33,616 nt of DNA from Bacteroidales bacterium (GTDB taxonomy: Bacteria > Bacteroidota > Bacteroidia > Bacteroidales > UBA932). Under the pieces are notes generated by a model. It saw only the letters and a list, made by a program, of their open reading frames with translations. It was not told where the DNA came from and ran no database searches. The stretch lies in NCBI GenBank assembly GCA_021443665.1, contig JABUTN010000005.1, positions 3,096 through 36,711 of the forward strand, written 5' to 3'. Of this stretch, positions 16-29,391 are shown one piece after another. How positions within the stretch are numbered: the first letter of the stretch is position 1; each line of letters starts with the position of its first letter. The position numbers and the translations under genes are program-made.

Positions 16-423
16 CTACAGGGCCAGCAGCACCTGAGCGAGCTGGTCGGTGCAGGATGTGCCCCTTTTGCCGCACTCGAGACCTTGGAATTTCGCGATG
101 GCGTCCTTGACCTTCATCCCCTCCACGAGGACTCCGATGGCCTTGAGGTTGCCGTTGCAGCCCCTTGTATATACGAGATTGTAAATGCGGTTCTTCTTGA
201 CGTCAAACTCTATCTTGGCGGAGCACACCTTCTTGCTGGGGACGGCCACAATGTGGCGTACACCATTTTCTTTGGTGTCTGAAATGATTTTGAAGGTGTC
301 GCCCTTCTCTATCTTTTCCTCGGACTTAACGGGCTCCTGCCCTGCTGCATAAGCGTTCTGATTTGCCATAGTGCACAACATCGCTGCGGCTACTGCCACT
401 GCCATAAAAAGTTTGGTTTTCAT
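16..423 (-). CDS. Secreted TSCPD-like (TIGR03905-type, 4-Cys) protein with N-terminal signal peptide
   Basis: Signal-like MKTKLFMAVAVAAAMLCTMANQNAYAA, then VCSAKIEFDV...GCNGNLKAIGVLVEGM...GLECGKRGTSCTDQLA, matching the remembered TSCPD/4Cys motif (CNGNLKAI.LVEGM...CG.R.TSCPDQLA). Confidence 0.75.
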   Translation of the reverse strand: MKTKLFMAVAVAAAMLCTMANQNAYAAGQEPVKSEEKIEKGDTFKIISDTKENGVRHIVAVPSKKVCSAKIEFDVKKNRIYNLVYTRGCNGNLKAIGVLVEGMKVKDAIAKFQGLECGKRGTSCTDQLAQVLLAL

Positions 424-441
424 TTGTGTTATTTTCTTAAG

Positions 442-1302
442 TTACAGAATTTCAATTTGATAGGACACGGAGAAAGACTCTCTCGGGACAAGGATGTTCA
501 CCTCGTCACGGTCGATGAAATCACCCTTATAGCCCACGCGGTCGCATCTGCCCCACCAAGGTTCTATGCACACGAAGGGCGCGTTTTTGCCAACCGGTGA
601 CCAGAGGCCCACGAGCGGGGCATTGAAGGCCAGGGCGAGCCAAGGCCTGCCGTCCGGGGCGTTCAGAGTGACCTTCTTCACCTGAGAGCGGTCAAATATC
701 AAGGCGTCCGCATCGAAAAGCGAAGGGGTAATCTGAATGTTCCTGCCGCAGGGGTGGCGTTTCGAGATATCGGCGCAGCCCTTCGAGCCTATCAGTATAT
801 ATTCCAAATCGTCGCTCCCTTCAAGGGTGAAGGAACCCCTGTCAGGAGAATCCGGGTTGAAGTCGGGATAATAGAAGGCGGGATGCGCCCCTATCTGGAA
901 AGGCAGAGGGCCGGCACCGGTGTTTATGACCTTCCAGCCCACATATACTGACTTCCCCTCTATGCGGTAGCCTATCTCCAGACGGAAGGGGAAGGGGTAT
1001 TTCTCAAGGGTTTCCTCATTGCTTTCAAGGGCGTACACGATGCTGTCGGCCGTCTTTGAGACCGGAGTGAAATCCATATCGCGGGCAAACCCGTGCTGGC
1101 TCATCTTGTAGCTGCGCCCGTTCACGCGGAATGTGCCGTCCCATACACTGCCCACAATTGGGAACAGGACCGGTGAATGGCGTTTCCAGTATTGGGGGTC
1201 GGCATTCCAGAGATACTCCTGCCCACTGCACAGGATTGAGCAGAGTTCGGCCCCGTGGGCGCTGATTGCAATTTCGAGAAATTCATTCTTGAGTGTTTCC
1301 AT
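442..1302 (-). CDS. Aldose 1-epimerase / galactose mutarotase-like protein
   Basis: 286 aa; AHGAELCSI...WNADPQYWKRHSPVLFPIVG...QHGFARDMDF...GAHPAF. Confidence 0.85.
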   Translation of the reverse strand: METLKNEFLEIAISAHGAELCSILCSGQEYLWNADPQYWKRHSPVLFPIVGSVWDGTFRVNGRSYKMSQHGFARDMDFTPVSKTADSIVYALESNEETLEKYPFPFRLEIGYRIEGKSVYVGWKVINTGAGPLPFQIGAHPAFYYPDFNPDSPDRGSFTLEGSDDLEYILIGSKGCADISKRHPCGRNIQITPSLFDADALIFDRSQVKKVTLNAPDGRPWLALAFNAPLVGLWSPVGKNAPFVCIEPWWGRCDRVGYKGDFIDRDEVNILVPRESFSVSYQIEIL

Positions 1303-1332
1303 ATCGCTCCAAAGTTAGGAAAACTTTGACAC

Positions 1333-1361
1333 AAAAAAAAGCGGCCCGCAACGGAGCCGCT
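1333..1361 (-). terminator. Rho-independent terminator downstream of rpmE2
   Basis: Minus strand AGCGGC-TCCGTTGCGG-GCCGCT followed by a T-run, ~20 nt after the rpmE2 stop. Confidence 0.85.
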
Positions 1362-1382
1362 CTGTTATACCGTGGAAGAAGA

Positions 1383-1634
1383 TTATTTCTTCTTGTTTGC
1401 GTAGCGCTGGTAGAATTTGTCCACGCGGCCGGCAGTGTCCACAAGCTTCATCTTACCTGTATAGAAGGGGTGTGAGGTGTTGGAGATCTCGACCTTCACC
1501 AGGGGGTACTGAACGCCCTCGATGTCGATGGTCTCTTTGGTGGACACACAGCTGCGGGTAATGAACACGTGCTCATTTGACATATCCTTGAAAGCTACAA
1601 GACGGTAGGAATCGGGATGAATACCTTTTTTCAT
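1383..1634 (-). CDS. rpmE2: 50S ribosomal protein L31 type B
   Basis: 83 aa [20 protein letters not shown]...[25 protein letters not shown]. Confidence 0.95.
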
Positions 1635-1672
1635 ATCTGTGTGTATTTGGTTTAAAGTATTTTTCGGGACCG

Positions 1673-1703
1673 CAAAAGTACTGATTATTTTTTAATTGGC
1701 AAA
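1673..1703 (-). promoter_or_regulatory. Bacteroidetes promoter for rpmE2
   Basis: Minus strand TTTG-N19-TACTTTTG, fits TTTG/TAnnTTTG. Confidence 0.7.
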
Positions 1704-1704
1704 T

Positions 1705-2901
1705 TTATCTGATTGTTCCTCTCACAAGTTTGTCGTCATAGAGGATGTATTTCTTGGCTTTCCGCATCCATTTCTGCTCCTGTTCCTTCATATATTCGCG
1801 TGTGGGGGCCCATTTTTCAAGCCCGAGGACATAGGCCTCAAGACTCTTGTCGGAGATTACGGATGAAAGCACTTGCGGCTCGTATCCCGGACACACGCCC
1901 CTCAGATAGCGCAGGATGCGCAGGAAATGGGACACGCTGTGGTAGCTAGGGCCGGGCTGTGGCATCAGCTGGTAGCCGTAGCAGATTTGTCCGGCGTAGG
2001 CGCCCCTTGCGGGGGTGAAACGGCACCAACGGGCGAACACTCCCTCGTCGCAAAGCAGGGCAAGTCCCTCTTCGCTTTCAGTGAGCATCCCCGCGCCTTC
2101 GAGAAGTCCTCCCTCAAGACCACCGCCCAGACCGGCTTCCTCTCCGATTTTCTCCATCCAGGGGGCACCGAACATCTCGTATGGCCTTCCACTGCCCTCG
2201 CCCACACTCACGGGAAGGGCCTTGAGCATATTCATACCGCTGTAGAACCTGAAGGTAAACATCCCCGGCACATCGGCGGCGGCGGGAATGCTCCAGGGCA
2301 GCATATAATGGGTGGAACTGCGCACCAGATAGGAAATCACGTGAAGCGAGAAACGCGCCCCGAGTTCGCTCTGCATCATCAAGGCAAGTTCTCCCGTGGT
2401 CAGGCCGTGAACTTGCGGAAGTCCGTAAGGCCCGCCCATTGTACCCTCCACACCGCGTCCGCAGGGATTCTCCCTGTCAAGCACATAGACCGAAGGAGCC
2501 AGGTCACAGCGCACCAGAGTCTCGAATAGAGAGCAGACAAGTTCGGTCACAGGGTCATAGCGCGAACCCGTGTCCTGATACTCAATCACTATGGCATCGA
2601 TGTCCGAGAGCATCTCCCCGGTGAATTCCCCCGGCGCAACCGCCACGAACTCCGTGCCGGAGAGTCCGAAACGGCTGTACTGCTCCACAACTCCGTGAAT
2701 AGGCGAGCCGGCGTATTCCCCGAAAAGCCCCTCGCAGGGCACAAACACCTTCGCCAGCGTTCCCCTGCGGTAAAGCGTCTCGAAAAGATATTCCCCCGAA
2801 TCGGGGAACCACGCGCTCTGGGAGCAGAGCACAGCCACGCGGCCGCGTCTGAAGACGAGGTCTTCCTGCTCAATCAAAGGGGTGGTGCGGAAGGAGAACA
2901 T
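1705..2901 (-). CDS. DUF1343 (NamZ exo-N-acetylmuramidase-like) protein, divergent
   Basis: QDTGSRYD...VLDRENPCG..VEG...VHGLTTGELA...VGEGSGRPYEMFGAPW; start moved to MFSFRTTP just after the glmM stop. Confidence 0.75.
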   Translation of the reverse strand: MFSFRTTPLIEQEDLVFRRGRVAVLCSQSAWFPDSGEYLFETLYRRGTLAKVFVPCEGLFGEYAGSPIHGVVEQYSRFGLSGTEFVAVAPGEFTGEMLSDIDAIVIEYQDTGSRYDPVTELVCSLFETLVRCDLAPSVYVLDRENPCGRGVEGTMGGPYGLPQVHGLTTGELALMMQSELGARFSLHVISYLVRSSTHYMLPWSIPAAADVPGMFTFRFYSGMNMLKALPVSVGEGSGRPYEMFGAPWMEKIGEEAGLGGGLEGGLLEGAGMLTESEEGLALLCDEGVFARWCRFTPARGAYAGQICYGYQLMPQPGPSYHSVSHFLRILRYLRGVCPGYEPQVLSSVISDKSLEAYVLGLEKWAPTREYMKEQEQKWMRKAKKYILYDDKLVRGTIR

Positions 2902-2902
2902 C

Positions 2903-4288
2903 TTAAACTGTTTTGGCGATGGCAATCACCCTTTGGGCCAAGGCGTCGGCCTTCTCCATTGTGGAGGCCTCGCTATAGACACGGATGATGGGCTCGGTGT
3001 TGGAACGGCGCAGATGCACCCACATCTTCTCGGCATCGAAGTCTATCTTCACGCCGTCTATCGTGGTCACGCGCTCGGAGGCGAACTCCGCCTTCACCTT
3101 GTCCAGGATTCTGTCTATAAGTACGGGGTCGCTGAGTTCTATTCTGTTCTTGGAAATCTCGTAAGGGGGGAGCGAGGCACGCAACTCGCTCACGGTGCAG
3201 GCCTTGTGGGCAAGATGGCTCAGGAACAGGGCCACTCCCACCATTGCGTCACGCCCGTAGTGAAGGTCGGGGAAAATCACGCCTCCGTTGCCTTCGCCGC
3301 CTATTACGGCTCCCACCTCCTTCATCTTTGTGGTCACGTTCACCTCTCCCACCGCACTGGCGAAATACTGCCCGCCGTGGGCGAGGGTCACATCAGCGAG
3401 GGCCCTCGAACTGGACAGGTTGGAAACCGTGTTGCCGGGACGCTGTCCGAGCACATAGTCAGCCACGCTCACAAGCGTGTATTCCTCACCGAAACATTCA
3501 CCGTTCTCGCACACAAGGGCAAGGCGGTCCACGTCGGGATCCACGCTGATGCCGAGGGCCGCACCGCTTTCGACAACCTTCGAGCAAAGTTCCGTCAGGT
3601 GGGCAGGCAGAGGCTCGGGATTGTGGGCGAAATCGCCTGTGGGCTCGCAGTTGACGCGGACGCACTCGACTCCAAGCGCCTCCAGAAGGGCGGGCATTAT
3701 CACTCCGCCCACTGAATTGACGGCATCCAGGACTACCTTGAAGCCGGCCTTGCGTATGGCATCCACATCCACAAGGGGATGCGCAACTACTGCCTGCACG
3801 TGGGCGTCGGTAAAATCCTTGCGGATGATATGTCCGATACCGTCCACCTCGCAGAAAGGGAAATCCCCGTTCTCTGCGGTCTGAAGCACCGCCCCACCCT
3901 CTGCAGCCGAGAGGAACTCGCCCTTCTCGTCGAGCAGTTTCAGGGCATTCCAGTTGCGGGGGTTGTGCGAAGCTGTCAGGATGATGCCGCCGTCAGCCTT
4001 TTCGAAAATCACGGCCATCTCCACGGTGGGAGTCGAGGCCAGGCCGGCGTTTATCACATCGATGCCACAGGCGACGAGGGTGCCGCACACGAGCTGGTCG
4101 ACCATCTCACCGGAAAGGCGGGCGTCACGTCCCACGACCACACGGCGGCCCTTGGAGCTGCCGCAGCGCACAAAGAGGCGCGAAGCGTACGCGGCGGTGA
4201 ACTTCACGATATCGACAGGTGTCAAGCCTTCTCCTGCAGCGCCTCCTATGGTGCCGCGGATGCCTGAAATGGATTTTATCAGACTCAT
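2903..4288 (-). CDS. glmM: Phosphoglucosamine mutase
   Basis: 461 aa; ISGIRGTIGG, ILTASHNPRNWNALK, DPDVDRLAL, RRSNTEPIIRVY. Confidence 0.92.
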   Translation of the reverse strand: MSLIKSISGIRGTIGGAAGEGLTPVDIVKFTAAYASRLFVRCGSSKGRRVVVGRDARLSGEMVDQLVCGTLVACGIDVINAGLASTPTVEMAVIFEKADGGIILTASHNPRNWNALKLLDEKGEFLSAAEGGAVLQTAENGDFPFCEVDGIGHIIRKDFTDAHVQAVVAHPLVDVDAIRKAGFKVVLDAVNSVGGVIMPALLEALGVECVRVNCEPTGDFAHNPEPLPAHLTELCSKVVESGAALGISVDPDVDRLALVCENGECFGEEYTLVSVADYVLGQRPGNTVSNLSSSRALADVTLAHGGQYFASAVGEVNVTTKMKEVGAVIGGEGNGGVIFPDLHYGRDAMVGVALFLSHLAHKACTVSELRASLPPYEISKNRIELSDPVLIDRILDKVKAEFASERVTTIDGVKIDFDAEKMWVHLRRSNTEPIIRVYSEASTMEKADALAQRVIAIAKTV

Positions 4289-5056: not shown

Positions 5057-6874
5057 TCAGTCCTCCAAGTCTGCTATTACTTTTAGTGCCGTCTGATATT
5101 TCGAGTCGAGAGCCTCGTGGGTGCCCGGAGGGGCATATCGCGCATACTCGCACTCATCCAGAAGCGCGAACAGGCCTTCTATCGCCTCCTGCGAACTTCC
5201 CCTCTCGAGAAGTTTCTCGCGTATGGTGTCCCTATCCAAGTCGGCGGGAGCGATTGTGAGTTTGTCGGCCACATAGCCGATAAGAGCCTTGTGGAGTTCC
5301 TCGATGAAGGCCGTTCCGAGTCCCTGGGCGAGATAGGAGTTCGCCTTCTTCAGACGGGCCTTGGCCACCTTCAACGCCTTGCGGCGGCGTCCTCCGGCCA
5401 CATCGGCCCTTCTGGTCTCCACCTTGCCCACTATCAGGCGCACTGCCACATAGGCTGCAACTATCAGCATGGCCGTTATCCACATCCAGGGCGAAGAGAC
5501 GAAGGAATCCCCGCTGCGGCGCAGACGGCCCGCGGATGTCGATATGTAGCGGATGTCCTCGCCGAGCGAACGCACGCTCTGTTTGTTGATGCCGCCCTCC
5601 TTGAACACGGAGGCGTCAGTGCCCTCACTGCGGGCGACCTTCACGGGTATCGGGTCGCTACTGAGTTTGAGATAGCGTCCGCCCTTTATGTTGTAGTAGG
5701 AAAGAGTCACAGGCTCCATCGTGAAATCCCCGGCACTGCGGGGAATGAAGGGGTACTCGAAGGTACGGGTGCCGCTCAAACCGGACCTGCCCGCCTTCAC
5801 GTTGTCCGTCTTCTTGATGTCATAGACCTCGAAATCGGGAGGGAAGTTTATCTTGGGGGCGTCCACCATACTGAGGTTGCCCGTTCCCGAGATAGTCACT
5901 ATCAGGGAGCCGGCCTCGTGGGCCTTCAGGGAATCCTTGGAGAGGCGCACCGTCATATTCAGGTCGCCCACGCCTCCGGTAAAGTCTGCCGGAGCCCCAT
6001 CGGGAAGGGCGCGGACGTTCACGTTTATCTTGTCCGTGGCCACCCTGCGGCGCACAGTCTGGTAGCCGCTGTCAAAGAAATCGTCGAATATGGAGCGGCC
6101 GCGCTGCGAGTTCTGCGCCCTGACCTGCAACAGGCATATAATCTCCGCCGGGTCTATGCTGATTTGTCCCGACTGCTGGGGCAGCAGCATATAGCGTCTG
6201 AGCAGGGCCGCATCGTAAATCTGGCCTCCCACATTCTCCCTCTCGAAATTGATATTCTGGGGAGCCTCGATTTCCTGGCTCCAAAAACCCTCGAAGGTGG
6301 GGAAGGTCACATCCTCAAAGCCGCTGATGGCCGCATTGCGAGCATAGAGTTTCAGGGTGGCGATAATGGGCTCGCCCTTCACGACGCTGGTCTTGCTGAG
6401 TTGCAGTTTGAGCATCAGTTCCCCGGCAGAGGCATAACTGCTCCCGCCTGAAGAACTTTCCTGTGAAGGGGAGGACTGGGGCTGCTGGCCCGAGGCCACC
6501 ACTTCTATGCTACGGGTGCCGCTGCTCTGCACCTTTCCGGCCACATCCGCCGAGGCGCTCGGTATGGTGAACTTTCCGGTGGATTTGGCCTGAAGCACGT
6601 AGGTATAGGTCACCTCGTAGGTCTGGGACCTCTTTCCGTTCACAAACTGGATGGAATTCATCGTGCTGCTTGTGGGGCCGGCCAACACGTGGAAATCCTC
6701 GAACTCAGGCTTGAAGAACTCCTTCACCTTGCCGGAGGCTATGTATTGTACATTGAAGGCCTCATCCAGAGAAACCACTGTGGGGGCCTCCACACGAAGT
6801 CCCTGGGCGGCGGCGTTGAGCGGCAGCAGCAGTGAGGCCGCAAATGCAATTATCAGACTACCAATTCTTTTCAC
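5057..6874 (-). CDS. batD: BatD, oxygen-tolerance family protein
   Basis: 605 aa; signal peptide, VSLDEAFNVQYIASGKV..F..P.F.DF.VLAGP..S, C-terminal TM, position in the Bat cluster. Confidence 0.9.
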   Translation of the reverse strand: MKRIGSLIIAFAASLLLPLNAAAQGLRVEAPTVVSLDEAFNVQYIASGKVKEFFKPEFEDFHVLAGPTSSTMNSIQFVNGKRSQTYEVTYTYVLQAKSTGKFTIPSASADVAGKVQSSGTRSIEVVASGQQPQSSPSQESSSGGSSYASAGELMLKLQLSKTSVVKGEPIIATLKLYARNAAISGFEDVTFPTFEGFWSQEIEAPQNINFERENVGGQIYDAALLRRYMLLPQQSGQISIDPAEIICLLQVRAQNSQRGRSIFDDFFDSGYQTVRRRVATDKINVNVRALPDGAPADFTGGVGDLNMTVRLSKDSLKAHEAGSLIVTISGTGNLSMVDAPKINFPPDFEVYDIKKTDNVKAGRSGLSGTRTFEYPFIPRSAGDFTMEPVTLSYYNIKGGRYLKLSSDPIPVKVARSEGTDASVFKEGGINKQSVRSLGEDIRYISTSAGRLRRSGDSFVSSPWMWITAMLIVAAYVAVRLIVGKVETRRADVAGGRRRKALKVAKARLKKANSYLAQGLGTAFIEELHKALIGYVADKLTIAPADLDRDTIREKLLERGSSQEAIEGLFALLDECEYARYAPPGTHEALDSKYQTALKVIADLED

Positions 6875-8615
6875 GTTTCTTTTCCTCCAACTTTTGTGCT
6901 TTTTCTTTCTTGACCTTGTCCTGGGTCTGCTTTTCCTTGTCCTCTATGGCCTGGAGCATCTGCTGGGCAGCCTGAGGAGTGATTTTGGGCTCCTGCTGGG
7001 GCTGGCCCTGCCGGTCTTTTTTATCCTGGTCCTTATTTTGGTTCTGGTCTTTGTTCTGATTCTGATCCTGGTTTTGGTCCTGATTCTGGTCTTTGTTCTG
7101 GTCTTTGTTCTGGTCCTGATTCTGATTTTGATCCTGCTGGTTCTGGTCTCCACCGCCGCCTCCGCCCTGCTGATCCTGCTGGTCCTTCAGATGCTTCTGG
7201 GCGTTGGCCAGGTTCTCCTTGGTTTCCATATCCGTGGGATTCAGCCTCAGCGAAGCCTTGTACTCATCCACAGCCTCCTGATACTTCTTCAACTGCATAT
7301 TCAGGTTTCCCATATTGTGATGATAGCGCGACAGTTCCTCCTTCGAGCGGCAGGTGGAGAGGGTATCAGCCAGTCCGTTCATATAGGTAGCGGCCTCGTT
7401 GTACATCTCCTGCTTGTAAAGTGTGTTGCCGAGGTTGAACTTCGCCACGGCGGAAGCCGTGTCCTTGACCAGGGCCTTGCGGTAATTCACATCGGCCTCG
7501 CGGTAATTTTCCTTCTTGAAATCCCTGTTGCCCCTGCGCACGTCCCTCTTGTCTTCCTGGGCGTTCACCACGGTGGGCACGAGCAGCAGCAAGGCAACAA
7601 TCGCGGCGGCCTTCCCATCGAAGATGGAACGGCCGGAACGGCGCTCGCTGACAAGCATCTCAATCACGAGAAGAAGCAGGGCAATCGCGAGGAAATACAT
7701 ATACTGTTCATCGAAATCCTCGAACACCAGGGACTGGTATTTCTTGGCCTCCATAGAGTGGATTTCGTCAATGATGGGGTTCAGGCCGAACTCCGTGTTC
7801 CCCGCCCTGACATAGAGTCCCTCGCCTGCGGATGCGACCTTGCGCAGCGTCTGCTCGTCAAGACGGGTCACCACCATATCGCCATTCTTGTCCTTGAGGT
7901 AACTTCCGTCCATAGGGATGGGCTTGCCTTCATTTGAGCCCACGCCTATGCAGAACACCCTCGCGCCCACACTCTTCGCGTCCTCAGCGGCGGCGACTGC
8001 ATCGTCCTCGTGGTTCTCTCCGTCCGTAATCACTATCACCGCCCTGGAGTTCTCGCTCTCAGCGCTGAAACTCCTCAGGGCCGTGCGTATGGCGTCACCT
8101 ATGGCCGTGCCCTGCACAGCCACGGACTCGGTGTTTATGGAGTTGAGGAAAATCTTGGCGGACACATAGTCTGTGGTTATGGGCAGCTGCACGAATGACT
8201 TGCCGGCGAACACAATCAGTCCCACCCTGTCGTCACGCAGACGGTCAACGAGTTTGGAAATGGCGAGTTTCGCCCTCTCCAGGCGGTTGGGGGAATAATC
8301 CTCCGCCAGCATCGAGTTGGACACGTCAAGCGCAATCATAATCTCCACTCCCTTCACCTCGCGCTCCTTGAGTGTGGCCCCAATCTGGGGACGGGCAAGC
8401 GCAACGGCGAAGAAGGCGATGGAAAGGCATACCAAGGTCAGTTTCACCCAGCCCTTGTATTTCGGGCTCAGGGGGAGAAGCTGTTCCACAAGTTCCCTGT
8501 CTCCGAAGCGCTCTATGCGTCTGCGGCGCAGCCTGCGGGAAATCGCGTAGCACACAAGCAGCAGCGGAATCAGCAGCAGAAGCCACAAATATTCTATGTT
8601 GGCGAAAATTATCAT
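6858..8615 (-). CDS. BatB-BatC fusion: VWA domain, internal TM/signal, TPRs, Q/N/D/K-rich tail
   Basis: VWA (IALDVSNSMLAEDYSPNRLERAK), TM, internal AAAIVALLLLVPTVVNAQ, TPRs, DQNQNQDQNKDQNKD tract. Confidence 0.88.
   Translation of the reverse strand: MIIFANIEYLWLLLLIPLLLVCYAISRRLRRRRIERFGDRELVEQLLPLSPKYKGWVKLTLVCLSIAFFAVALARPQIGATLKEREVKGVEIMIALDVSNSMLAEDYSPNRLERAKLAISKLVDRLRDDRVGLIVFAGKSFVQLPITTDYVSAKIFLNSINTESVAVQGTAIGDAIRTALRSFSAESENSRAVIVITDGENHEDDAVAAAEDAKSVGARVFCIGVGSNEGKPIPMDGSYLKDKNGDMVVTRLDEQTLRKVASAGEGLYVRAGNTEFGLNPIIDEIHSMEAKKYQSLVFEDFDEQYMYFLAIALLLLVIEMLVSERRSGRSIFDGKAAAIVALLLLVPTVVNAQEDKRDVRRGNRDFKKENYREADVNYRKALVKDTASAVAKFNLGNTLYKQEMYNEAATYMNGLADTLSTCRSKEELSRYHHNMGNLNMQLKKYQEAVDEYKASLRLNPTDMETKENLANAQKHLKDQQDQQGGGGGGDQNQQDQNQNQDQNKDQNKDQNQDQNQDQNQNKDQNQNKDQDKKDRQGQPQQEPKITPQAAQQMLQAIEDKEKQTQDKVKKEKAQKLEEKKREKNW
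7021..7150 (-). repeat. Degenerate in-frame 6/12-nt repeat encoding a (D/N/K)QN(Q/K)D tract in BatC
   Basis: Plus strand shows repeated ttctggtcctgattctggtctttgttctgg units. Confidence 0.85.
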
Positions 8616-9610
8616 ATCCTTCGTGCAGCGAAAAGTCTCAATAAAATTTCAAGCAGGAGCAGTGCCAGGGCGGCCAGGGCATAGCGCAGGTACAGTTCCG
8701 TATAAATCGGGAAGGAATCCACGCTCGTACGCACTTTCTCCATCTTGTTTATCTGGTCATAAATCTGCATCAGTTTGGTGTTGTCCGTGGCACGGAAATA
8801 CTCGCCGCCGGTGCTGGAGGCAATCTCCTCGAGGAGTTTCTCGTCTATCTCCACCTCCACATCCATCACCCTCACGCCGAATGCGGTCATCACCGGATAG
8901 GGGGCCGTGCCCATAGCGCCCACGCCTATGGTGTAAACCCTCACACCATATGTCTTGGCAATCTCAGCGGCCATCTGTGGAGTAATCTCGCCCCTGTTGT
9001 TCACACCGTCTGTGAGCAGGATGACCACCCTGCTCTTGGCCTGTGAGTCCTTCAGGCGGGCCACGGCGTTCGCCAGACCGTTGCCTATGGCCGTGCCGTC
9101 ATCTATGATTCCGCACTCCACCTCCTTCAGAAGGTTTATCAGGGTGGCGCGGTCTGTGGTCAGGGGAGACTGGGTATAACTCTCTCCCGCGAACACCACC
9201 ACTCCTATGCGGTCGGAGGGCCTCTGCGAGATGAACTCTATGGCAATGTTCTTGGCGGCCTCGATACGGTCGGGGTCGAAATCGCGGGCCAGCATACTCG
9301 TCGAAACGTCAAGTGCCAGCACTATGTCTATACCCTCCGTATCCACCTTTTCGAAGGTGTCACTGCTGCGGGGGCGCGCTATCGCCACTATCATCAGCGC
9401 CAGGGCCGCCAGGCGAAGCACAAAGGGAATATGGCGCAAAGAGCCGAATATGCGGTTGAGTCTGTGGCTCATAGGGGCAATGCCGGACACCCTCATCCAG
9501 GGTGTACTGCCCTTGTGCAACTGCCTGAACACGTAAAGGGCAATCAGGGGCAAGAGCGCAAACTCGAGCCACAGCACCCACGGATATTCAAAAAACACTC
9601 CCTCACTCAT
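8612..9610 (-). CDS. batA: BatA, VWA domain membrane protein
   Basis: VLALDVSTSMLARDFDPDRIEAAKNIA, N- and C-terminal TMs. Confidence 0.9.
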   Translation of the reverse strand: MSEGVFFEYPWVLWLEFALLPLIALYVFRQLHKGSTPWMRVSGIAPMSHRLNRIFGSLRHIPFVLRLAALALMIVAIARPRSSDTFEKVDTEGIDIVLALDVSTSMLARDFDPDRIEAAKNIAIEFISQRPSDRIGVVVFAGESYTQSPLTTDRATLINLLKEVECGIIDDGTAIGNGLANAVARLKDSQAKSRVVILLTDGVNNRGEITPQMAAEIAKTYGVRVYTIGVGAMGTAPYPVMTAFGVRVMDVEVEIDEKLLEEIASSTGGEYFRATDNTKLMQIYDQINKMEKVRTSVDSFPIYTELYLRYALAALALLLLEILLRLFAARRI

Positions 9611-10556
9611 TCTTCGGTTCCTCCTTTTGTTCCAGGGTCTGCATAAAAGTGTCGTTCACAAAGCGGACGGCAGTGGGAATCACTCCCTCGTTCTCCGCTT
9701 CGGAAGCGGTGTATTTGGCGAACTTGACCAGATCCGAAAGCGTGAACAAATCCTTCAGGGACTCGAAGCTCTCCGGACGGACATCCGCCTTAGACAGGTC
9801 CTCGAGAATCTCCGCGCTGGTGCGTTCCATAGACTGGATTGCAAACCTTTCCTCTATATATACCCTCATCGCATCGGTCACCTCGGTGTAGAACTGCTTC
9901 TGCTTGCCGTTCTGCCACAACTGGCTCCGGCGTGTCTTCTCCAGCGAACGGAGGGCGACTATATGGGCGGGGTCCTTTACGGTGTGGTGTCCGAGCAGGG
10001 ATTTCCCGGCCAGATGACGCTTTATCAGATATATCGCGAGGCCAGCCAGGGCTATTATCAGTAAAGCCAGTCCTATCCATGGAAGGGTTTCCCTGAAGGT
10101 GACGGGATAGGTGAGCTGGCCCTTGAGGTCGTGCATCTCGAAGGTTGTGGTGTCGATGTCAAAACTCTGCACATACAGGGGCAGAGCTTGCATCCTGATG
10201 GTGTCCACAAGTTCCTCCCCATTGTAGAAATACACCATCACGGGGGGAATCACATATACTCCCGAGTCGAAACTGGTGATGGTGGCGCGGGTGGTGAAAT
10301 TGGCGAAATCCTTCTTTACCTTCAGAGTATCGACCTTGAAATCCCCTATCAGTTCCACTCCGGGAGTCACATAGCCGGACATGGTGTCTATGTGGATGCG
10401 CATCCCCTTGGGAGCCTGGATGCGGGAACTCCACTCCACCTGATCGCCTATGAGTATGCTGTCACGGCTCAGGCGGGTTTCCACAATCTGCTGCGCCCCC
10501 AGCCGGAGGGCGAAGGCAGACAAGATTGTCATTATGACTGCAAACCTGCGTATCAT
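9603..10556 (-). CDS. BatD-like/DUF4381-like membrane protein of the Bat operon
   Basis: Signal peptide, beta-rich domain, TM (WIGLALLIIALAGLAIYLI), soluble tail; lies between DUF58 and batA. Confidence 0.65.
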   Translation of the reverse strand: MIRRFAVIMTILSAFALRLGAQQIVETRLSRDSILIGDQVEWSSRIQAPKGMRIHIDTMSGYVTPGVELIGDFKVDTLKVKKDFANFTTRATITSFDSGVYVIPPVMVYFYNGEELVDTIRMQALPLYVQSFDIDTTTFEMHDLKGQLTYPVTFRETLPWIGLALLIIALAGLAIYLIKRHLAGKSLLGHHTVKDPAHIVALRSLEKTRRSQLWQNGKQKQFYTEVTDAMRVYIEERFAIQSMERTSAEILEDLSKADVRPESFESLKDLFTLSDLVKFAKYTASEAENEGVIPTAVRFVNDTFMQTLEQKEEPKNE

Positions 10557-11446
10557 GATCTGTTCTTGAACAAAGCCACAATGGCCTTTACATAATCCTG
10601 GTCGGTGCCGACGCTCACATTATCAACCTTGTATCTGCGGAGCGTCACCAGACACTCCTCGAGTTCCCTCCTGCGGCACTCCTCATAGTGGTCGCGCACT
10701 GCGGCAAGGGAAGTGTTGATCCACATCCTTTTGCCCGTCTCCGCATCACATACCTGGAACATTCCGACATCGGGCAGACTGCGCTCGCGGGGATCGTACA
10801 CGTTTATCACCGATATGTCGTGACGTCCCACCACAATCTTGAGCGCCTCTTCCCAGCGGGGTTGTCCGTTCTGGTCGGCATCCATCATATCAGAAAGCAG
10901 GAAGGCCGTGCAGCGCCTCTTTATTGCGTTGGTAAGGTAGCGCAGGGCCTCGCCGATGTCCGTGCCCGCCTCCTGCGGCTCGAACTCCAGAAGTTCGCGG
11001 ATGATGCGCAGCAGATGGGTGCGACCCTTCTTTGGAGGGATGAATTTCTCCACCTTCGAACTGAAGAAAAGCGCTCCCACCTTGTCGTTGTTGATCGATG
11101 CCGAGAAGGCAAGGCTCGCCGCAATCTCTGCCATAAGTTCCTTCTTGGTCTTGCCGGCTGTACCGAACAGGCGCGAACGGCTCACGTCTATCAGCAGCAC
11201 CACCGTCAGTTCCCTTTCCTCCTCAAAAACCTTGATATAGGGGCTGCGGAGGCGTGCGGTGACGTTCCAGTCCATATTGCGCACATCGTCGCCCCACTGG
11301 TATTCGCGCACTTCGCTGAATGCCATACCGCGTCCCTTGAACGCGGAATGGTACTCACCGGCGAAGATTTGATGCGACAGACCGCGGGTCTTGATCTCAA
11401 TCTTCCGGACCTTCTTCAGTAACTCGTTGCTTGACCGGCTGTCCAT
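10553..11446 (-). CDS. DUF58 domain protein
   Basis: GRGMAFSEVREYQWGDDVRNMDWNVTARLRSPYIKVFEEERELTVVLLIDVS. Confidence 0.92.
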   Translation of the reverse strand: MDSRSSNELLKKVRKIEIKTRGLSHQIFAGEYHSAFKGRGMAFSEVREYQWGDDVRNMDWNVTARLRSPYIKVFEEERELTVVLLIDVSRSRLFGTAGKTKKELMAEIAASLAFSASINNDKVGALFFSSKVEKFIPPKKGRTHLLRIIRELLEFEPQEAGTDIGEALRYLTNAIKRRCTAFLLSDMMDADQNGQPRWEEALKIVVGRHDISVINVYDPRERSLPDVGMFQVCDAETGKRMWINTSLAAVRDHYEECRRRELEECLVTLRRYKVDNVSVGTDQDYVKAIVALFKNRS

Positions 11447-13219: not shown

Positions 13220-16153
13220 TTACTTGCAATACTCTTTGTAGTAATCTATGTTATATGCATTCAGCTGTTCCTCGTACTTGTCCAGCTTGCTGTTGGACAG
13301 CCAGGGCACATAGCCGTCAACGAGGCCGGCCTCATAGAGTCCGCGGATTTCCTTTTCCAGGTTCTCCGCATCATAGTCGATGCCGTTGCTGTCCACGTGC
13401 TTCATCACGTGATAGGCCTGCACCCAGGTGCGCACCTTGGCGGGGGTGGGACATTTCTTCTGGCCCGCCTGCACCCTCAGGCCCCACTGGTACATAATCT
13501 CATAGGGATGGTTCCAGGGCTTCTTGACACCATAATAGTTGTCGGCGAAATGATCGGGATAGGGCATTCCGCAGATTACATCGCAGACATTGGAGATTGC
13601 GGGCCAGTACTGGCCGTATCCTGTGGTATAGCCTCCGTTGGCTGACTCCCCGAACACATCGATTGACACATATACCCCTTCCCCGTGCAGCTGGTCGCAG
13701 GCATAGCGCACGAAGCACTGCACAGCCTGGACCTTGCTCTCCCCGTAGATGTTGCGATAGTCTATGAACTCCTCTATGGAAGTGACCTTGTCGGGGAAAC
13801 GCACATAATCGAAGTTTATCTCATCGAAACCGAATTCGCGGACAATCTCCTTCGCGAGGGCGACGTTATACTCCCACACCCTGCGGCTGTACGCGCTGGG
13901 CCAGTAGGACTTGTTGTGGAAGAATGCCTTGCCGTCACGTTTATCCATCAAGGCGCATTGGGGATTGTCCTCCACGAAATAACTGTCCTTGAAGCAGGTG
14001 ATGCGGCCGACCACCCAAAAGCCGGCCTCGTGGAGTTTGCGCACCGCCTCGCGGTAAAACCTGGCATTGTCGGGAGCCTTGCGGTAACTGGTGGGCGAGT
14101 AGGTCTTCATCGCCTGAGCCTTGAAGCCGGGGGCCGTATTGTCCTTGATATCTATGACAAAAGTGTTTATCTTGGTCTTTTTCGCGAATTCAATGTACTC
14201 GTCTATGCGGCCGACCTTGGTGCAGTTGAGATACAGCCCGTAGCAGGACTGGGGCATCCTACGGCCCTCGAACTGCGGCTTCTCGACGGGGTAGTAGTCA
14301 CAGCCGTCAGCCCTGCCGCCGCCAAACTTGTCCTTTGCGGCGCTGTGCAGGGTGTCGTAATGCTCCGCCCTGTAGTTCTGAAGAGAAGCCAGACTGTCCT
14401 GGCAGGTGTATCTTCCGGCGATGACGGCAGTGGGGAAGTTCTTGTCCTTCATCTCGATGGTGTAGGTCACCACCCGTCCCTTCGCATCAAGTGTGTCGAA
14501 GCCCGCCACCAGCAGAGAAGAGCCCTTACCGGCAAAACCCGCAACGCGATGGTCTCCACCGGCCGCCGTCATTACCGTGGAAGTGCGCACAAACACCTTC
14601 TTCTCCAGAACGGTGCTGTGGTAGTCCTCCACTACAGAGGTCTTGTCCACATAGCCCTTAAACTCATCCGTCTCCACCCAGGCATAGTCTTTCTTGTTGA
14701 GTTTACACTCCCTTTCCGGGAAAACGAGGACCTTCGAGCCCCTCAGCAGCAGCGTATCGCAGACTCGGAGTGATTTTTCTTTCGCATCGATGGCGTATGT
14801 GGCCACATCCGGGCTGTCGGATGCAAGGTAGGCCTCCACCCGAGGCTCTTCCTCGTCAGGAGTCCGGCCGCAGGAGGCAAAGGATACAAGGCTCAGGGCT
14901 ATGGGAATAAGCAGCATCCCCGCCCTACCCTTTTGGAAGAAAGAACTGATATATTTGAACATTACAAAAAGGAATAACACAATCAGGATGGCCGCCTGCA
15001 GACCGACACCGCGCCTTATGTTTCTATATACAATCTCCTCATCCGCCGAGCCGTTGATGAAAGCCCTCGTGTCCCTGGGCTCCACAAAACCGCTCGCCAC
15101 CTTTGCCACCACAATGCCCTCGTTGAGATACAGGAACCCCCCGTTGGAGCGCATCATCGCTATTAGGGTGCGGTAATCGGAAAAACCGAGTTCGACCGAG
15201 CTGAGACCATAGGCATTCAGACTGGAATCCACCTGCTCATCCATCGAGGGCAGCAGAATCATAAAATATCCGCCGCAGGCGACCACACTGTCCCTGACCA
15301 TGGCTATTTCCCGCCAGGCGGACTCCGCCAGACCTTGTGGATTGCGCACAACCGACATAATCAGCGGGTACTTGAGCATCAGGAGTTCTTCGGTAATGTC
15401 GTTATCCATATGGTCAGTCACCCTCATCTGGAAAGGCGGCTTCTCGAAAAGCGTGCGCTTGTGGGCATTCACGGTATGGGATTCCTCAAAAGTCCAGCTC
15501 TCGTCCGGAAGATTATCCAAAGTGAATTCCCTGCTCTCACCGTCCTTGGAATAGGTGAAGACGGTCTCGAATTCATTTGCGTCACGGGCGTCTTCCAACT
15601 GGACCATAAGATTGGAGCCGACCGAATAGGGGCCGAAATCGATGGCCGGGGCCGTCAGATATATGCTTGTGCAGAAAATCAGGGCCAGCACGGAAAATAT
15701 GATAATCACCCTCATTTCCCAGCGGGGGGTGGAAACGGTGCGGAAACGCTTGCGGTACAAGAAAATGCATATGCTCATCAGCAGCAGAATCACATTCTTC
15801 CAGAATGTCTCCCAGGGGGTGAGGTATATCGCCTCTCCGAAACAGCCGCAGTCCGACACGGGCTCCCCTATTGCCATATACAGCGCGAAGCCGGTATAGA
15901 GGACCATCATCACCATTGTCACTATGGACACAATCCTGATATGCACCCTCATCCAGATGGCAAGGCCCAGCACTATCTCAGCCGTGCTGAGGACTATCGA
16001 CGCCGCGGGCGACAGCGTCTGCAGAAAAGGATAGTGAAGCAAATCGGAAATCTTGAGGGCAAAGCCGACGGGGTCCACGAACTTCGTCACGCCCGAAACT
16101 ATGAAAACCGCTCCCAATAAAAAGCGGAATATGAACATCAGAAACCTTATCAT
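13220..16153 (-). CDS. Fusion: DoxX/MauE-like membrane protein + SH3-like + DUF4015-type putative glycosidase
   Basis: N-terminal GAVFIVSGVTKFVDPVGFALKI...DCGCFGEAIYLTPWETF; internal MLLIPIALSLVSFASCG; C-terminal INTFVIDIKDNTAPGF...FDEINFDYVRFPD. Confidence 0.8.
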   Translation of the reverse strand: MIRFLMFIFRFLLGAVFIVSGVTKFVDPVGFALKISDLLHYPFLQTLSPAASIVLSTAEIVLGLAIWMRVHIRIVSIVTMVMMVLYTGFALYMAIGEPVSDCGCFGEAIYLTPWETFWKNVILLLMSICIFLYRKRFRTVSTPRWEMRVIIIFSVLALIFCTSIYLTAPAIDFGPYSVGSNLMVQLEDARDANEFETVFTYSKDGESREFTLDNLPDESWTFEESHTVNAHKRTLFEKPPFQMRVTDHMDNDITEELLMLKYPLIMSVVRNPQGLAESAWREIAMVRDSVVACGGYFMILLPSMDEQVDSSLNAYGLSSVELGFSDYRTLIAMMRSNGGFLYLNEGIVVAKVASGFVEPRDTRAFINGSADEEIVYRNIRRGVGLQAAILIVLFLFVMFKYISSFFQKGRAGMLLIPIALSLVSFASCGRTPDEEEPRVEAYLASDSPDVATYAIDAKEKSLRVCDTLLLRGSKVLVFPERECKLNKKDYAWVETDEFKGYVDKTSVVEDYHSTVLEKKVFVRTSTVMTAAGGDHRVAGFAGKGSSLLVAGFDTLDAKGRVVTYTIEMKDKNFPTAVIAGRYTCQDSLASLQNYRAEHYDTLHSAAKDKFGGGRADGCDYYPVEKPQFEGRRMPQSCYGLYLNCTKVGRIDEYIEFAKKTKINTFVIDIKDNTAPGFKAQAMKTYSPTSYRKAPDNARFYREAVRKLHEAGFWVVGRITCFKDSYFVEDNPQCALMDKRDGKAFFHNKSYWPSAYSRRVWEYNVALAKEIVREFGFDEINFDYVRFPDKVTSIEEFIDYRNIYGESKVQAVQCFVRYACDQLHGEGVYVSIDVFGESANGGYTTGYGQYWPAISNVCDVICGMPYPDHFADNYYGVKKPWNHPYEIMYQWGLRVQAGQKKCPTPAKVRTWVQAYHVMKHVDSNGIDYDAENLEKEIRGLYEAGLVDGYVPWLSNSKLDKYEEQLNAYNIDYYKEYCK

Positions 16154-24308: not shown

Positions 24309-24338
24309 CAAATATAGCCAATTTTTTCTATTCCACAA
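24309..24338 (-). promoter_or_regulatory. Promoter of rplY-pth
   Basis: Minus strand TTG-N19-TATATTTG, upstream part overlapping the end of the C11 peptidase gene. Confidence 0.55.
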
Positions 24339-25587
24339 CCATTCCCACCGCTTTGTTCCAGTCAAAGCCAAGGTAGAAACTGTCCAGTTTGCTGTGGCGG
24401 GGATTGGAAATGTAGGTGCTCAGGCCGCAGAACCTCTTGATCCTGAACTCCGTATGCCCTCCGAGTTTGTATTCGGGAGTGGCGGCCTTGAAGCGGCAGG
24501 CCCTGTCCCAGGCGGCACATAGTTCGGCATATTGTTCTGGAGTGGAAATCCTCTCCATAAGGTCAAGATAGTCATAGAAATAGTGTCTGCCCATACGGAA
24601 GTAGCCCTGGACCTTGTCCATAGGAAGCCCTTCAATCTTGTAGGCCGTCCCTTCCCCGTCACGCTCCAGTGAAGAGAACACAGCCCGGCTCTTCTCGGCA
24701 ACCTCGGCGAGTTCCGAGGTCTTGAAAACTGAAATCGTGGCACCCGTGTCTATGTACTCATAATAAGTGTAGTAAATGTCAGCGGCGGCCACCACTCCGT
24801 CCTCGTCCATTTTGAAGAAAGGTTCTATCACGGTGTCGTAGGGATAGCCGTCCGTCAGAATCTCCGCTGCGGAACTCATCACGAAATCGCACTTGTCCCT
24901 CAACTGGTACACAGTCTCAATGCCACCCATCAGGCAGGCATCAAAGGCGATGAAGTCATAGTGGAAGGGAAGGCAGGCGCACAGGTCGCAAATCTCCATC
25001 TCCGCCTTCGCGTTATATCTGTCGTGCAGGCCCCAGGTCTTCACCATATCGGCATAGGGGTCTTCCATCTGCGCGGGGGCGGGCCTCAGGAACACGCTGC
25101 CGTCCGGAGCTGTGACGGACTCGGTCGGATTGGAATAGAATCCCTTGGGAAGCCAGCCCGTGCCGTGCGAACTAAGTATGAGCCCCCTCTGCTTGACGGG
25201 AAAGAAACTTTCGGCATCGTTGATCACGGTAGCAAGCACCTCGGCGCTGGCGGAATTCTGATGCGGGTATTTTTTCAGGGTGTCGATGACCAGGGCCATA
25301 TCCTTCTTGTAATACCTGCACAGGGTGGGGCATTCTTCCCTTTCGCTGTCAAGATACACGAGAAGGACCTTGTCCTCCCCGCCCGTGAGATAGCCCGGGA
25401 CATAACCCTGCTTTATCTCCTCTATATCCGCGCTCACCGCAGTGGCAAGGCTGTTCTTGTATGCCGCTATGTACACCAGTATCGACTTGGAGGCCTCTCC
25501 CTCGGGGGGCACAGGCGTGTCCTGATTGCAGGATGCGAGGGTGAAAAGGGCGGCTATAATTGTGATTATGGAGTAAAAGCGCTTCAT
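24328..25587 (-). CDS. Clostripain-family (C11) cysteine peptidase, predicted lipoprotein
   Basis: Start MKRFYSIITIIAALFTLASC; LILSSHGTGW; FDACLMGGIETVYQLRDKCDFVMSSAAEI. Confidence 0.87.
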   Translation of the reverse strand: MKRFYSIITIIAALFTLASCNQDTPVPPEGEASKSILVYIAAYKNSLATAVSADIEEIKQGYVPGYLTGGEDKVLLVYLDSEREECPTLCRYYKKDMALVIDTLKKYPHQNSASAEVLATVINDAESFFPVKQRGLILSSHGTGWLPKGFYSNPTESVTAPDGSVFLRPAPAQMEDPYADMVKTWGLHDRYNAKAEMEICDLCACLPFHYDFIAFDACLMGGIETVYQLRDKCDFVMSSAAEILTDGYPYDTVIEPFFKMDEDGVVAAADIYYTYYEYIDTGATISVFKTSELAEVAEKSRAVFSSLERDGEGTAYKIEGLPMDKVQGYFRMGRHYFYDYLDLMERISTPEQYAELCAAWDRACRFKAATPEYKLGGHTEFRIKRFCGLSTYISNPRHSKLDSFYLGFDWNKAVGMVVE

Positions 25588-25606
25588 TTTTCTTTCTTTG
25601 GAATCG

Positions 25607-25639
25607 CAAATATAGAAATAATACTTAACTTTGTCCAAA
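25607..25639 (-). promoter_or_regulatory. Promoter of C11 peptidase
   Basis: Minus strand TTTG-N21-TATATTTG. Confidence 0.65.
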
Positions 25640-26591: not shown

Positions 26592-28601
26592 ATGAAAATT
26601 AAGACTATGGTTATGATTGCAGGCGCAAGCCTGTCATTGGTCTCCTGCGGCCAGAAAGGCGGCACTGCGGAGACAAAGGACGATTTCAAATACCTGATAG
26701 ACGAGTTCGCCGACCTCAAAATTATCAGATACCGAGTTCCCCAGTGGGAAGAGTTGAGCCTCTCGCAGAAGGAGTACATCTACCACCTGAGCGAAGCCGC
26801 AAAGTGGGGGCGCGACATAATCTGGGCGCAGCATTTCAAATACAATCTCGACATCAGGCATACCCTTGAAGGCATAATATCCGACTATCCCGGAGACAGG
26901 AGCACCCCTGAATTCCAGTCGTTTATGGTATATGCAAAAAGGGTGTTCTTTTCCAACGGCATACACCACCACTACGCTGAAGAGAAGTTCGTGCCCGAAA
27001 TCAGCCGGGAATACTTCGCAAGCCTCGTTGCCGAGTCAGGCCTTGCCGCCCTTGACAAAGACATAGTGGAAGCCATCTTCGACCCCGAAATCTACCGCTA
27101 CCGCAGATATATAGGTACGGACAAGGACCAGGTTGCGGAATCGGCCATCAACTTCTACGAAGGTGTCACAAAAAAGGAAGTCCAGGACTTCTACAACAAG
27201 CAGCGCCGCAAGGACGACCCCAGGCCGATTTCATACGGTCTGAACACCAAACTCGTGAAGGAGAACGGCAAAATCGTGGAAAAGCCCTACAAGATTGACG
27301 GACTCTACGGCAAGGCCATAGCCAAGGTCGTGGAAGAACTCAGGCAAGCTGCAGCCTGCGCCGAGAACGACGCCCAGCGCGAGTACATCGCCCTTCTGAT
27401 AAAATACTACGAGACAGGCGATCTCAAGATTTGGGACGACTACAACGTGGCCTGGGTGCAGGACACCTCTTCCGACGTGGACTTCGTGAACGGCTTCGTG
27501 GAAGACTACAGCGATCCTCTCGGAATGAAGGCCTCCTGGGAAGCAAACATCAACTTCAGGAACAAGGCAGCCTCCGCCCGTACCGAGACCATCTCCGACA
27601 ACGCCCAATGGTTCGAGGACAATTCCCCCATTGACCAGCGTTTCAAGAAACAGACCGTCAAGGGCGTTTCCGCCAAGGTCATCAATGTAGCCCAACTCGC
27701 GGGTGACGCGTTCCCCTACACCGCCATCGGCATCAACCTGCCCAACGCGGACTGGATCCGCAAGGAGTACGGTTCCAAGTCAGTGACCATAGACAATATC
27801 ACCGAAGCCTATGCCAAAGCCGCCGAGGAGTCTCCCAAGAGTGTGCTGGGCGAGTTCGCCTGGGATGAGAAGGAAATCGCGCGTTCAAAGGAATACGGTT
27901 CAATCTGCGACAATCTACACACCGACCTGCACGAATGTCTCGGACACGGCTCCGGCCAGATTCTCCCCGGCGTTTCATCAAATGCCCTCGGAGAATACCA
28001 GTCCACCCTCGAGGAGGCGCGTGCCGACCTGTTCGGTCTATACTATCTCGCGGACCACAAACTTGTGGAACTCGGCCTTCTCCCCAACGAAGATGCCTAC
28101 AAAGCCTCATACGACGGCTACATCCGCAACGGCAGCTTCACGCAGTTCAGCCGCGTGGAACTCGGCAAACTGAACACCGAGGCCCATATGCAGAACAGAA
28201 AACTGATTTCCGACTGGTGCATAGAGAAGGGAAAGGAAGCCAATGTCATCGAGAAGAAAGTGCGTGACGGCAAGACCTACTTCGTGATCAACGACTATGA
28301 GGCCCTCAGAGGCCTGTTCGGAGACCTGCTCGCAGAAATCCAGCGCATCAAGAGCGAAGGCGACTATGAAGCCGGCAAGGCTCTCGTGGAAGGCTACGCC
28401 GTACGCATCGACCCCGAACTCCACAAAGAGGTTCTGGAGCGTTACGCCTCCCTCGAACTCAAGCCCTACGGAGGTTTCGTAAATCCCGTGATCTATCCCG
28501 TCACCAACGACAAGGGCGAAGTCATCGACTATGACCTCGACTACAGCCAGGACTTTGTCGGGCAAATGATGTATTATGGGAAGAACTATTCGACCCTCTG
28601 A
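26592..28601 (+). CDS. Dipeptidyl peptidase III (M49), predicted lipoprotein
   Basis: Lipobox SLVSC; zinc motif HECLGHGSGQ; second motif EEARADLFGLYYL. Confidence 0.92.
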   Translation: MKIKTMVMIAGASLSLVSCGQKGGTAETKDDFKYLIDEFADLKIIRYRVPQWEELSLSQKEYIYHLSEAAKWGRDIIWAQHFKYNLDIRHTLEGIISDYPGDRSTPEFQSFMVYAKRVFFSNGIHHHYAEEKFVPEISREYFASLVAESGLAALDKDIVEAIFDPEIYRYRRYIGTDKDQVAESAINFYEGVTKKEVQDFYNKQRRKDDPRPISYGLNTKLVKENGKIVEKPYKIDGLYGKAIAKVVEELRQAAACAENDAQREYIALLIKYYETGDLKIWDDYNVAWVQDTSSDVDFVNGFVEDYSDPLGMKASWEANINFRNKAASARTETISDNAQWFEDNSPIDQRFKKQTVKGVSAKVINVAQLAGDAFPYTAIGINLPNADWIRKEYGSKSVTIDNITEAYAKAAEESPKSVLGEFAWDEKEIARSKEYGSICDNLHTDLHECLGHGSGQILPGVSSNALGEYQSTLEEARADLFGLYYLADHKLVELGLLPNEDAYKASYDGYIRNGSFTQFSRVELGKLNTEAHMQNRKLISDWCIEKGKEANVIEKKVRDGKTYFVINDYEALRGLFGDLLAEIQRIKSEGDYEAGKALVEGYAVRIDPELHKEVLERYASLELKPYGGFVNPVIYPVTNDKGEVIDYDLDYSQDFVGQMMYYGKNYSTL

Positions 28602-28959: not shown

Positions 28960-29391
28960 TTATTGCAATACGGGCATTATCAGGCCTATTTTGTTCAACT
29001 TGTCCCACAGCCACATCTTGCCCCCCTCACTTTTCGAGCATTCCATATCTATAATGAAAGAGTCCACTCCGTTGGGGACCACATACTGTATGTTCACAAG
29101 AACGGTCGCTCCGAGCCCCCCGGGATTCTTATCCAGAGAGGCCATCACACAGGTGTCCTGGGCATTGGTCTGGAGGCGGAATTTCCTGCGGGCATCGTTC
29201 CTGCTGATTTGGGTGCAGGTGGGCCTGTATAGGAACTCCCCGTTTCCGTCAGAGTAGATGCCTATGCGCTCATTCTTCAGGAAAAGGGCCTTTTCCTCAG
29301 AATCTATCTCAATCTGTATATTGTTCCGGCATCCCCCCGCAAGAACGCAGAGCACCGCCGCCAATATGACTTTATGGAATCTTTTATTCAT
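28960..29391 (-). CDS. Small predicted lipoprotein, unknown function
   Basis: MNKRFHKVILAAVLCVLAGGC lipobox; start overlaps the M6 stop (ATGAATAA). Confidence 0.7.
   Translation of the reverse strand: MNKRFHKVILAAVLCVLAGGCRNNIQIEIDSEEKALFLKNERIGIYSDGNGEFLYRPTCTQISRNDARRKFRLQTNAQDTCVMASLDKNPGGLGATVLVNIQYVVPNGVDSFIIDMECSKSEGGKMWLWDKLNKIGLIMPVLQ

Follow-up and report, generated by a model that had tools for sequence, protein, structure and literature searches.

An open reading frame joining a BT_3928-family membrane protein to a lipoprotein-type DUF4015 glycosidase in an uncultured Bacteroidales bacterium

We found that an uncultured gut-type Bacteroidales bacterium carries a single open reading frame (ORF) that joins a BT_3928-family protein of the DoxX/MauE type to a lipoprotein-type glycosidase composed of two SH3-like modules and a DUF4015 domain. 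The ORF encodes 977 amino acids and runs free of stop codons from position 13220 to 16153 on the minus strand of the window, the 33,616-nucleotide stretch of DNA analyzed here. The fusion is probably real and restricted to one species, and its architecture combines known parts in a new way. We see about an even chance that it is a genuine in-frame fusion made as one chain, in which the old signal peptide of the lipoprotein exports the glycosidase and the chain is most likely cut at Cys428 by Lgt and LspA. The fusion protein may then be a precursor that is cut in two by the cell.

As claimed in a preliminary description of this DNA, two otherwise separate genes are joined here in a continuous frame, and the check for a missed stop found none in frame between the start ATG at 16153 and the stop codon at 13222-13220. 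In the whole assembly (1.79 Mb in 44 contigs, 96% complete) the open frame is 988 amino acids long, and each half is present in one copy, both within the fusion ORF. Third-position GC stays at ~0.6-0.8 along the entire ORF, with no foreign patch. The end of the upstream gene tmk (thymidylate kinase, PF02223; 16150-16905, minus strand) overlaps the start of the fusion, and tmk also lies directly 5' of the BT_3928 gene in the regions of 18 relatives, mostly with folP divergent. Downstream lies truA (tRNA pseudouridine synthase, PF01416; 12480-13229, minus strand), and the annotated genes adjoining the fusion ORF appear unbroken. A chimeric contig is unlikely, given an in-frame join at a natural terminus, uniform third-position GC and a family-typical gene order upstream. 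Elsewhere, the window encodes a further peptidoglycan-related enzyme, the exo-beta-N-acetylmuramidase NamZ (1705-2925, minus strand), beside the phosphoglucosamine mutase gene glmM (2903-4288). Three unrelated peptidases lie within ~7 kb of one another: a Clostripain-family C11 peptidase (24328-25638, minus strand), an M49 peptidase (26592-28601, plus strand) and an M6-type peptidase (29384-31363, minus strand).

Residues 1-410 of the fusion protein (14924-16153; this and all further features of the ORF are on the minus strand) form the BT_3928-family part, whose natural C-terminus falls at about residues 403-412 in an alignment with 33 relatives. The NCBIfam model BT_3928_fam (NF045576) matches residues 6-353 with 280.6 bits, above its curated equivalog cut-off of 250 bits, and the profiles for MauE (PF07291; 75.6 bits vs a cut-off of 27) and DoxX (PF07681; 25.4 bits vs 23.6) agree with the DoxX/MauE identity assigned at the outset. 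The four-helix MauE/DoxX membrane domain, delimited by the PF07291 match and by helices in a structure model, spans residues 4-131 (15761-16144). The paired cysteines of the BT_3928 part are those of the DCGCFG motif in this domain (residues 101-106; 15836-15853), of which C102-G106 are invariant in 34 aligned sequences. The structure model, covering residues 1-440 (pLDDT 87.5), contains membrane helices, the last of them at residues 370-412, and a thioredoxin fold of periplasmic type that is closest to ResA; within that last helix, hydropathy places TM6, the last helix of the BT_3928 part, at residues 388-406 (14936-14992). The best Foldseek matches of the thioredoxin/ResA-like domain (residues ~180-355; 15089-15616) are ResA/TlpA-type thioredoxins (probability 1.00, TMt ~0.6-0.68), at an E-value of only 5e-3. 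Model and matches thus point to a predicted periplasmic domain, as had been suggested. A search of its translation found no CXXC, which makes it improbable that this domain acts as a thiol oxidoreductase itself.

The fusion protein shares with the BT_3928 family an NF045576 score above the equivalog cut-off, the tmk-BT_3928 gene order and the DCGCFG motif. In usual members the last helix is followed by a short basic tail and the protein stops near residue 410, whereas the fusion protein runs 565 residues further, its frame continuing into the DUF4015 protein. NF045576 is a domain-level model, and the BT_3928 membership of residues 1-410 therefore stands.

The C-terminal part, residues 413-977, was modeled by AlphaFold2 on 17 aligned sequences (mean pLDDT 89.1, pTM 0.87) as two all-beta SH3-like modules followed by a TIM barrel. 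The modules, at residues 439-503 (14645-14839) and 519-579 (14417-14599), are recognized by their strands in the model, consistent with the SH3-like repeats proposed earlier, and a Pfam search over both returned no match. The barrel, at residues 640-954 (13292-14236), is a glycoside-hydrolase-like DUF4015 domain (PF13200; 234.2 bits vs a gathering cut-off of 27, profile positions 2-310 of 313) that keeps all columns invariant among the 17 aligned sequences, D782, D832 and E836 being examples of invariant acidic residues. The proposed DUF4015-type glycosidase was borne out by profile and structure alike: phmmer matched the domain to 4s1a (6.9e-29), and Foldseek matched the barrel to the same protein, Cthe_0052 (TMt 0.84), to Cwp19 of Clostridioides difficile (E 3.7e-13) and to the glycosidase domain of PgaB (E 1.1e-10). 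Cwp19 (GHL10, PF02638), a peptidoglycan lytic transglycosylase (PMC6016235), and PgaB have the same barrel fold but are 10-15% identical to the DUF4015 domain and belong to another Pfam family. In a literature search DUF4015 was scarcely mentioned, with no enzyme activity established in the papers found; it is fused in one case to YkyA, a domain elsewhere paired with polysaccharide deacetylases (PMC12700454). Our best guess for the predicted substrate is peptidoglycan or an amino-sugar polymer akin to it, judging from the two SH3-like modules, a barrel similar to those of Cwp19 and PgaB, and the link to YkyA.

The junction between the two parts lies at the natural ends of both. In the alignment with the 33 BT_3928 relatives, K400 is opposite K or R in 23, Y401 opposite Y in 17 and R410 opposite K or R in 31. 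Tail homology holds in frame to R410 and is followed by A411, G412 and M413, where the glycosidase protein begins, indicating that two whole proteins were joined with no linker. An earlier BT_3928 end, at a TAATG overlap near codon 398, is excluded because conserved tail residues run on in frame. The basic junction loop QKGRAG (residues 407-412; 14918-14935), predicted to be cytosolic, aligns with the basic tails of the relatives.

Codon 413 is the ATG at 14917, where the text MLLIPIALSLVSFASCG is present, and it opens a retained lipoprotein-type signal peptide, or predicted TM7, spanning residues 413-428 (14870-14917). The signal ends in the lipobox FASC, whose Cys428 is encoded at 14870-14872. 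LVSFAS-C428 follows a hydrophobic core and is homologous to the starts of 27 stand-alone copies of the glycosidase, so that the lipoprotein-type signal suspected at codon 413 appears, by homology, to be what it was taken for. Such a start was present in 27 of the 32 stand-alone homologues read, and in 27/27 at least one K or R (one to three) precedes the hydrophobic core; one of the stand-alone copies has an identical FASC lipobox. In the fusion protein no K or R follows M413 in the signal (MLLIPIALSLVSFAS-C), and K400, K408 and R410 sit in the BT_3928 tail. The -3 residue of the lipobox is F, which is not the commonest residue at this position. From Cys428 the sequence reads CGRTPDEEE, and its acidic run resembles the surface lipoprotein export signal (LES) of Bacteroidota. 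That signal consists of C-X-K-(D/E)2 or Q-A-(D/E)2 adjoining the Cys, with C-X-K-(D/E)2 as the optimum (PMC5080379); here R occupies +3, and the acidic run, at +6 to +9, lies further from the Cys than in the LES optimum.

The BT_3928 tail is also fused to other proteins. In genus g11 of the same family, BT_3928 and MurB are encoded in frame in at least eight species (for example at 223-2562, minus strand, of locus L018), while two more species have a stop near the join and most others have the genes in tandem. The MurB part of several of these fusions has no start Met at the join, and such fusions must be translated as one. In genus g53, from another family of the order, BT_3928 and TpiA are in frame in 7/8 species (for example at 8668-10773, plus strand, of locus L088), and in the eighth a single TAA stands at the join. 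In each case, as in the fusion described here, a downstream gene is joined in frame to the BT_3928 tail. The MurB and TpiA fusions differ in having cytosolic partners without a signal and in being kept across several species, whereas the DUF4015 partner is exported and occurs once. The MurB and TpiA cases indicate that the tail tolerates fusion, and across the frames compared here it has acquired a downstream partner on at least three separate occasions (MurB, TpiA, DUF4015).

These fusions also bear on topology. MurB and TpiA are cytosolic enzymes, and the BT_3928 tail to which they are fused would therefore lie on the cytosolic side, an orientation that also fits its basic residues. With a cytosolic tail, one more helix is needed for the glycosidase to lie outside, and the signal at codon 413 could provide it. 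The topology judged coherent in the preliminary description is thus supported, as a prediction, by the basic tail and by fusions in other genera. A BatB-BatC fusion of 585 amino acids is also present in the window (6858-8615, minus strand) and had been named as another fusion with a retained internal export signal. A search of 60 genomes found BatB and BatC in one frame in several relatives and split in others, which makes it a common family-level fusion and not a comparable peculiarity of the source genome.

We surveyed fused and split genes among relatives. The BT_3928 protein was found in 384 of the 399 genomes sampled from the family, suggesting that the N-terminal part is probably needed, and the source genome has no replacement for it. 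Among the matches listed or read from the 399 genomes, no BT_3928-DUF4015 fusion was found outside the source genome. Two other genomes of the source genus have an unfused BT_3928 gene and no glycosidase, these genomes being only 73% and 76% complete. Stand-alone glycosidases were identified in 13 other family genomes, all of genus g23, and in 37/400 species of this sister genus; these searches ruled out that the glycosidase is new to the family, as its absence from 99 other relatives in a first search (0/99) had implied. At the 12 stand-alone loci read, the glycosidase was not beside a BT_3928 gene.

The stand-alone SH3-DUF4015 lipoproteins are patchy in g23 and are kin to anchored homologues from Bacilli. 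Both groups have the same module order as the C-terminal part of the fusion but are encoded by separate genes with their own basic signal-peptide start, and the Bacilli homologues (41-45% identity) are anchored by a simple hydrophobic segment that lacks a lipobox. Most g23 copies share 60-68% identity with the glycosidase domain of the fusion, the most distant one 57%, and the Bacilli copies 50-53%. In a phylogenetic tree, the fusion's glycosidase and the g23 copies formed one Bacteroidales clade (support 99/100) apart from the Bacilli homologues. An old transfer of the SH3-DUF4015 gene between gut Bacilli and Bacteroidales is suggested, with a tree too weakly supported to give its direction. 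Plasmid or phage carriage of the glycosidase was rejected, since the searches yielded weak plasmid matches only and one 40% match in an unannotated faecal phage record.

We propose that the BT_3928 gene lost its stop codon, and that the last basic BT_3928 residues became the n-region for the signal peptide of a lipoprotein glycosidase encoded directly downstream. Made as one chain, the product would insert so that the thioredoxin-like domain of its BT_3928 part is periplasmic and the tail cytosolic. A cytosolic turn, QKGRAG, would lead into the former signal peptide, which would run outward as a seventh helix and export the SH3-DUF4015 part through the inner membrane. The chain would then most likely be lipidated and cut at Cys428 by Lgt and LspA. 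This would yield a BT_3928 protein extended by one short helix, together with a normal envelope lipoprotein that starts CGRTPDEEE and is predicted to cut glycan. More broadly, the ORF could encode a natural polyprotein whose internal lipoprotein signal is lipidated and cut by Lgt and LspA, so that one translation product supplies both a protein of the inner membrane and a lipoprotein of the envelope, while the BT_3928 tail would be a repeated acceptor of MurB, TpiA and DUF4015; we offer this wider description tentatively, with the balance tipping slightly against it. A limited search of the open-access literature found no paper on a natural case of LspA cutting an internal signal after six helices. 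The nearest known parallel is FbcH of Bradyrhizobium, a cytochrome b/c1 polyprotein that is cut at an internal signal by ordinary signal peptidase and whose parts work together. In both, a single frame runs from a multi-helix membrane protein through an internal signal sequence to an exported protein, but FbcH has an ordinary signal peptidase site whereas the signal of the fusion is lipoprotein-type and only predicted to be cut.

The chain could instead stay uncut: the old signal would remain as a permanent seventh transmembrane helix that holds the SH3-glycosidase at the inner membrane, next to the thioredoxin-like domain, where it would act on periplasmic glycan. The TM6-loop-TM7 hairpin is coherent in hydropathy and in the model, and the plain hydrophobic anchor of the Bacilli homologues indicates that this enzyme can function while tethered. 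However, the lipobox Cys is retained, like that of most Bacteroidales copies, and a lipobox out of use would be expected to drift. Unless the fusion is young, this conservation speaks for cutting rather than lasting tethering, and leaves the uncut chain a serious but rather unlikely alternative.

We consider it unlikely that a one-base assembly or sequencing error masks the BT_3928 stop and that the ORF is really two tandem genes. Tightly overlapping tandem genes are the rule in the window, and an out-of-frame TAG lies 10 bases before ATG413, at the expected BT_3928 end, and the gain or loss of one base in the A/G run next to it would bring it into frame. Such a TAG could reflect a one-base error or equally the one-base mutation that created the fusion. 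What favors the fusion is that two hidden genes would leave a signal peptide unlike those of all relatives, as a lipoprotein starting at M413 would have no basic n-region while 27/27 relatives have one. The in-frame BT_3928 homology to R410, the unbroken look of the annotated adjoining genes and the true fusions of the BT_3928 tail in other genera likewise argue against an artefact.

A continuous frame from which the glycosidase is mainly made as a separate lipoprotein, through an internal start at ATG413 or at ATG398 with a longer basic n-region, seems to us quite improbable. Both ATGs are in frame, operons in the window are densely overlapped, and a start at M398 would put MFKYISSFFQKGRAG ahead of the hydrophobic core. 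But M398 lies inside a conserved BT_3928 motif (F-R/K-Y) and so need not be a start, and no basic residue lies between M413 and the core. The in-frame ATG at 14917 is present as had been pointed out, and initiation there is less likely than was implied because it would come with no basic n-region.

By itself, the DUF4015 case is a single-species fusion of known parts. If the fusion protein is cut at Cys428, it would offer a natural experiment on whether the enzymes of lipoprotein maturation can use a signal embedded within a polytopic membrane protein. Of wider bearing is the recurrence of fusions at the BT_3928 tail, with its cytosolic side fixed by MurB and TpiA. This recurrence raises the question of whether the BT_3928 protein, uncharacterized but nearly universal in the family, gains from carrying enzymes at the membrane.
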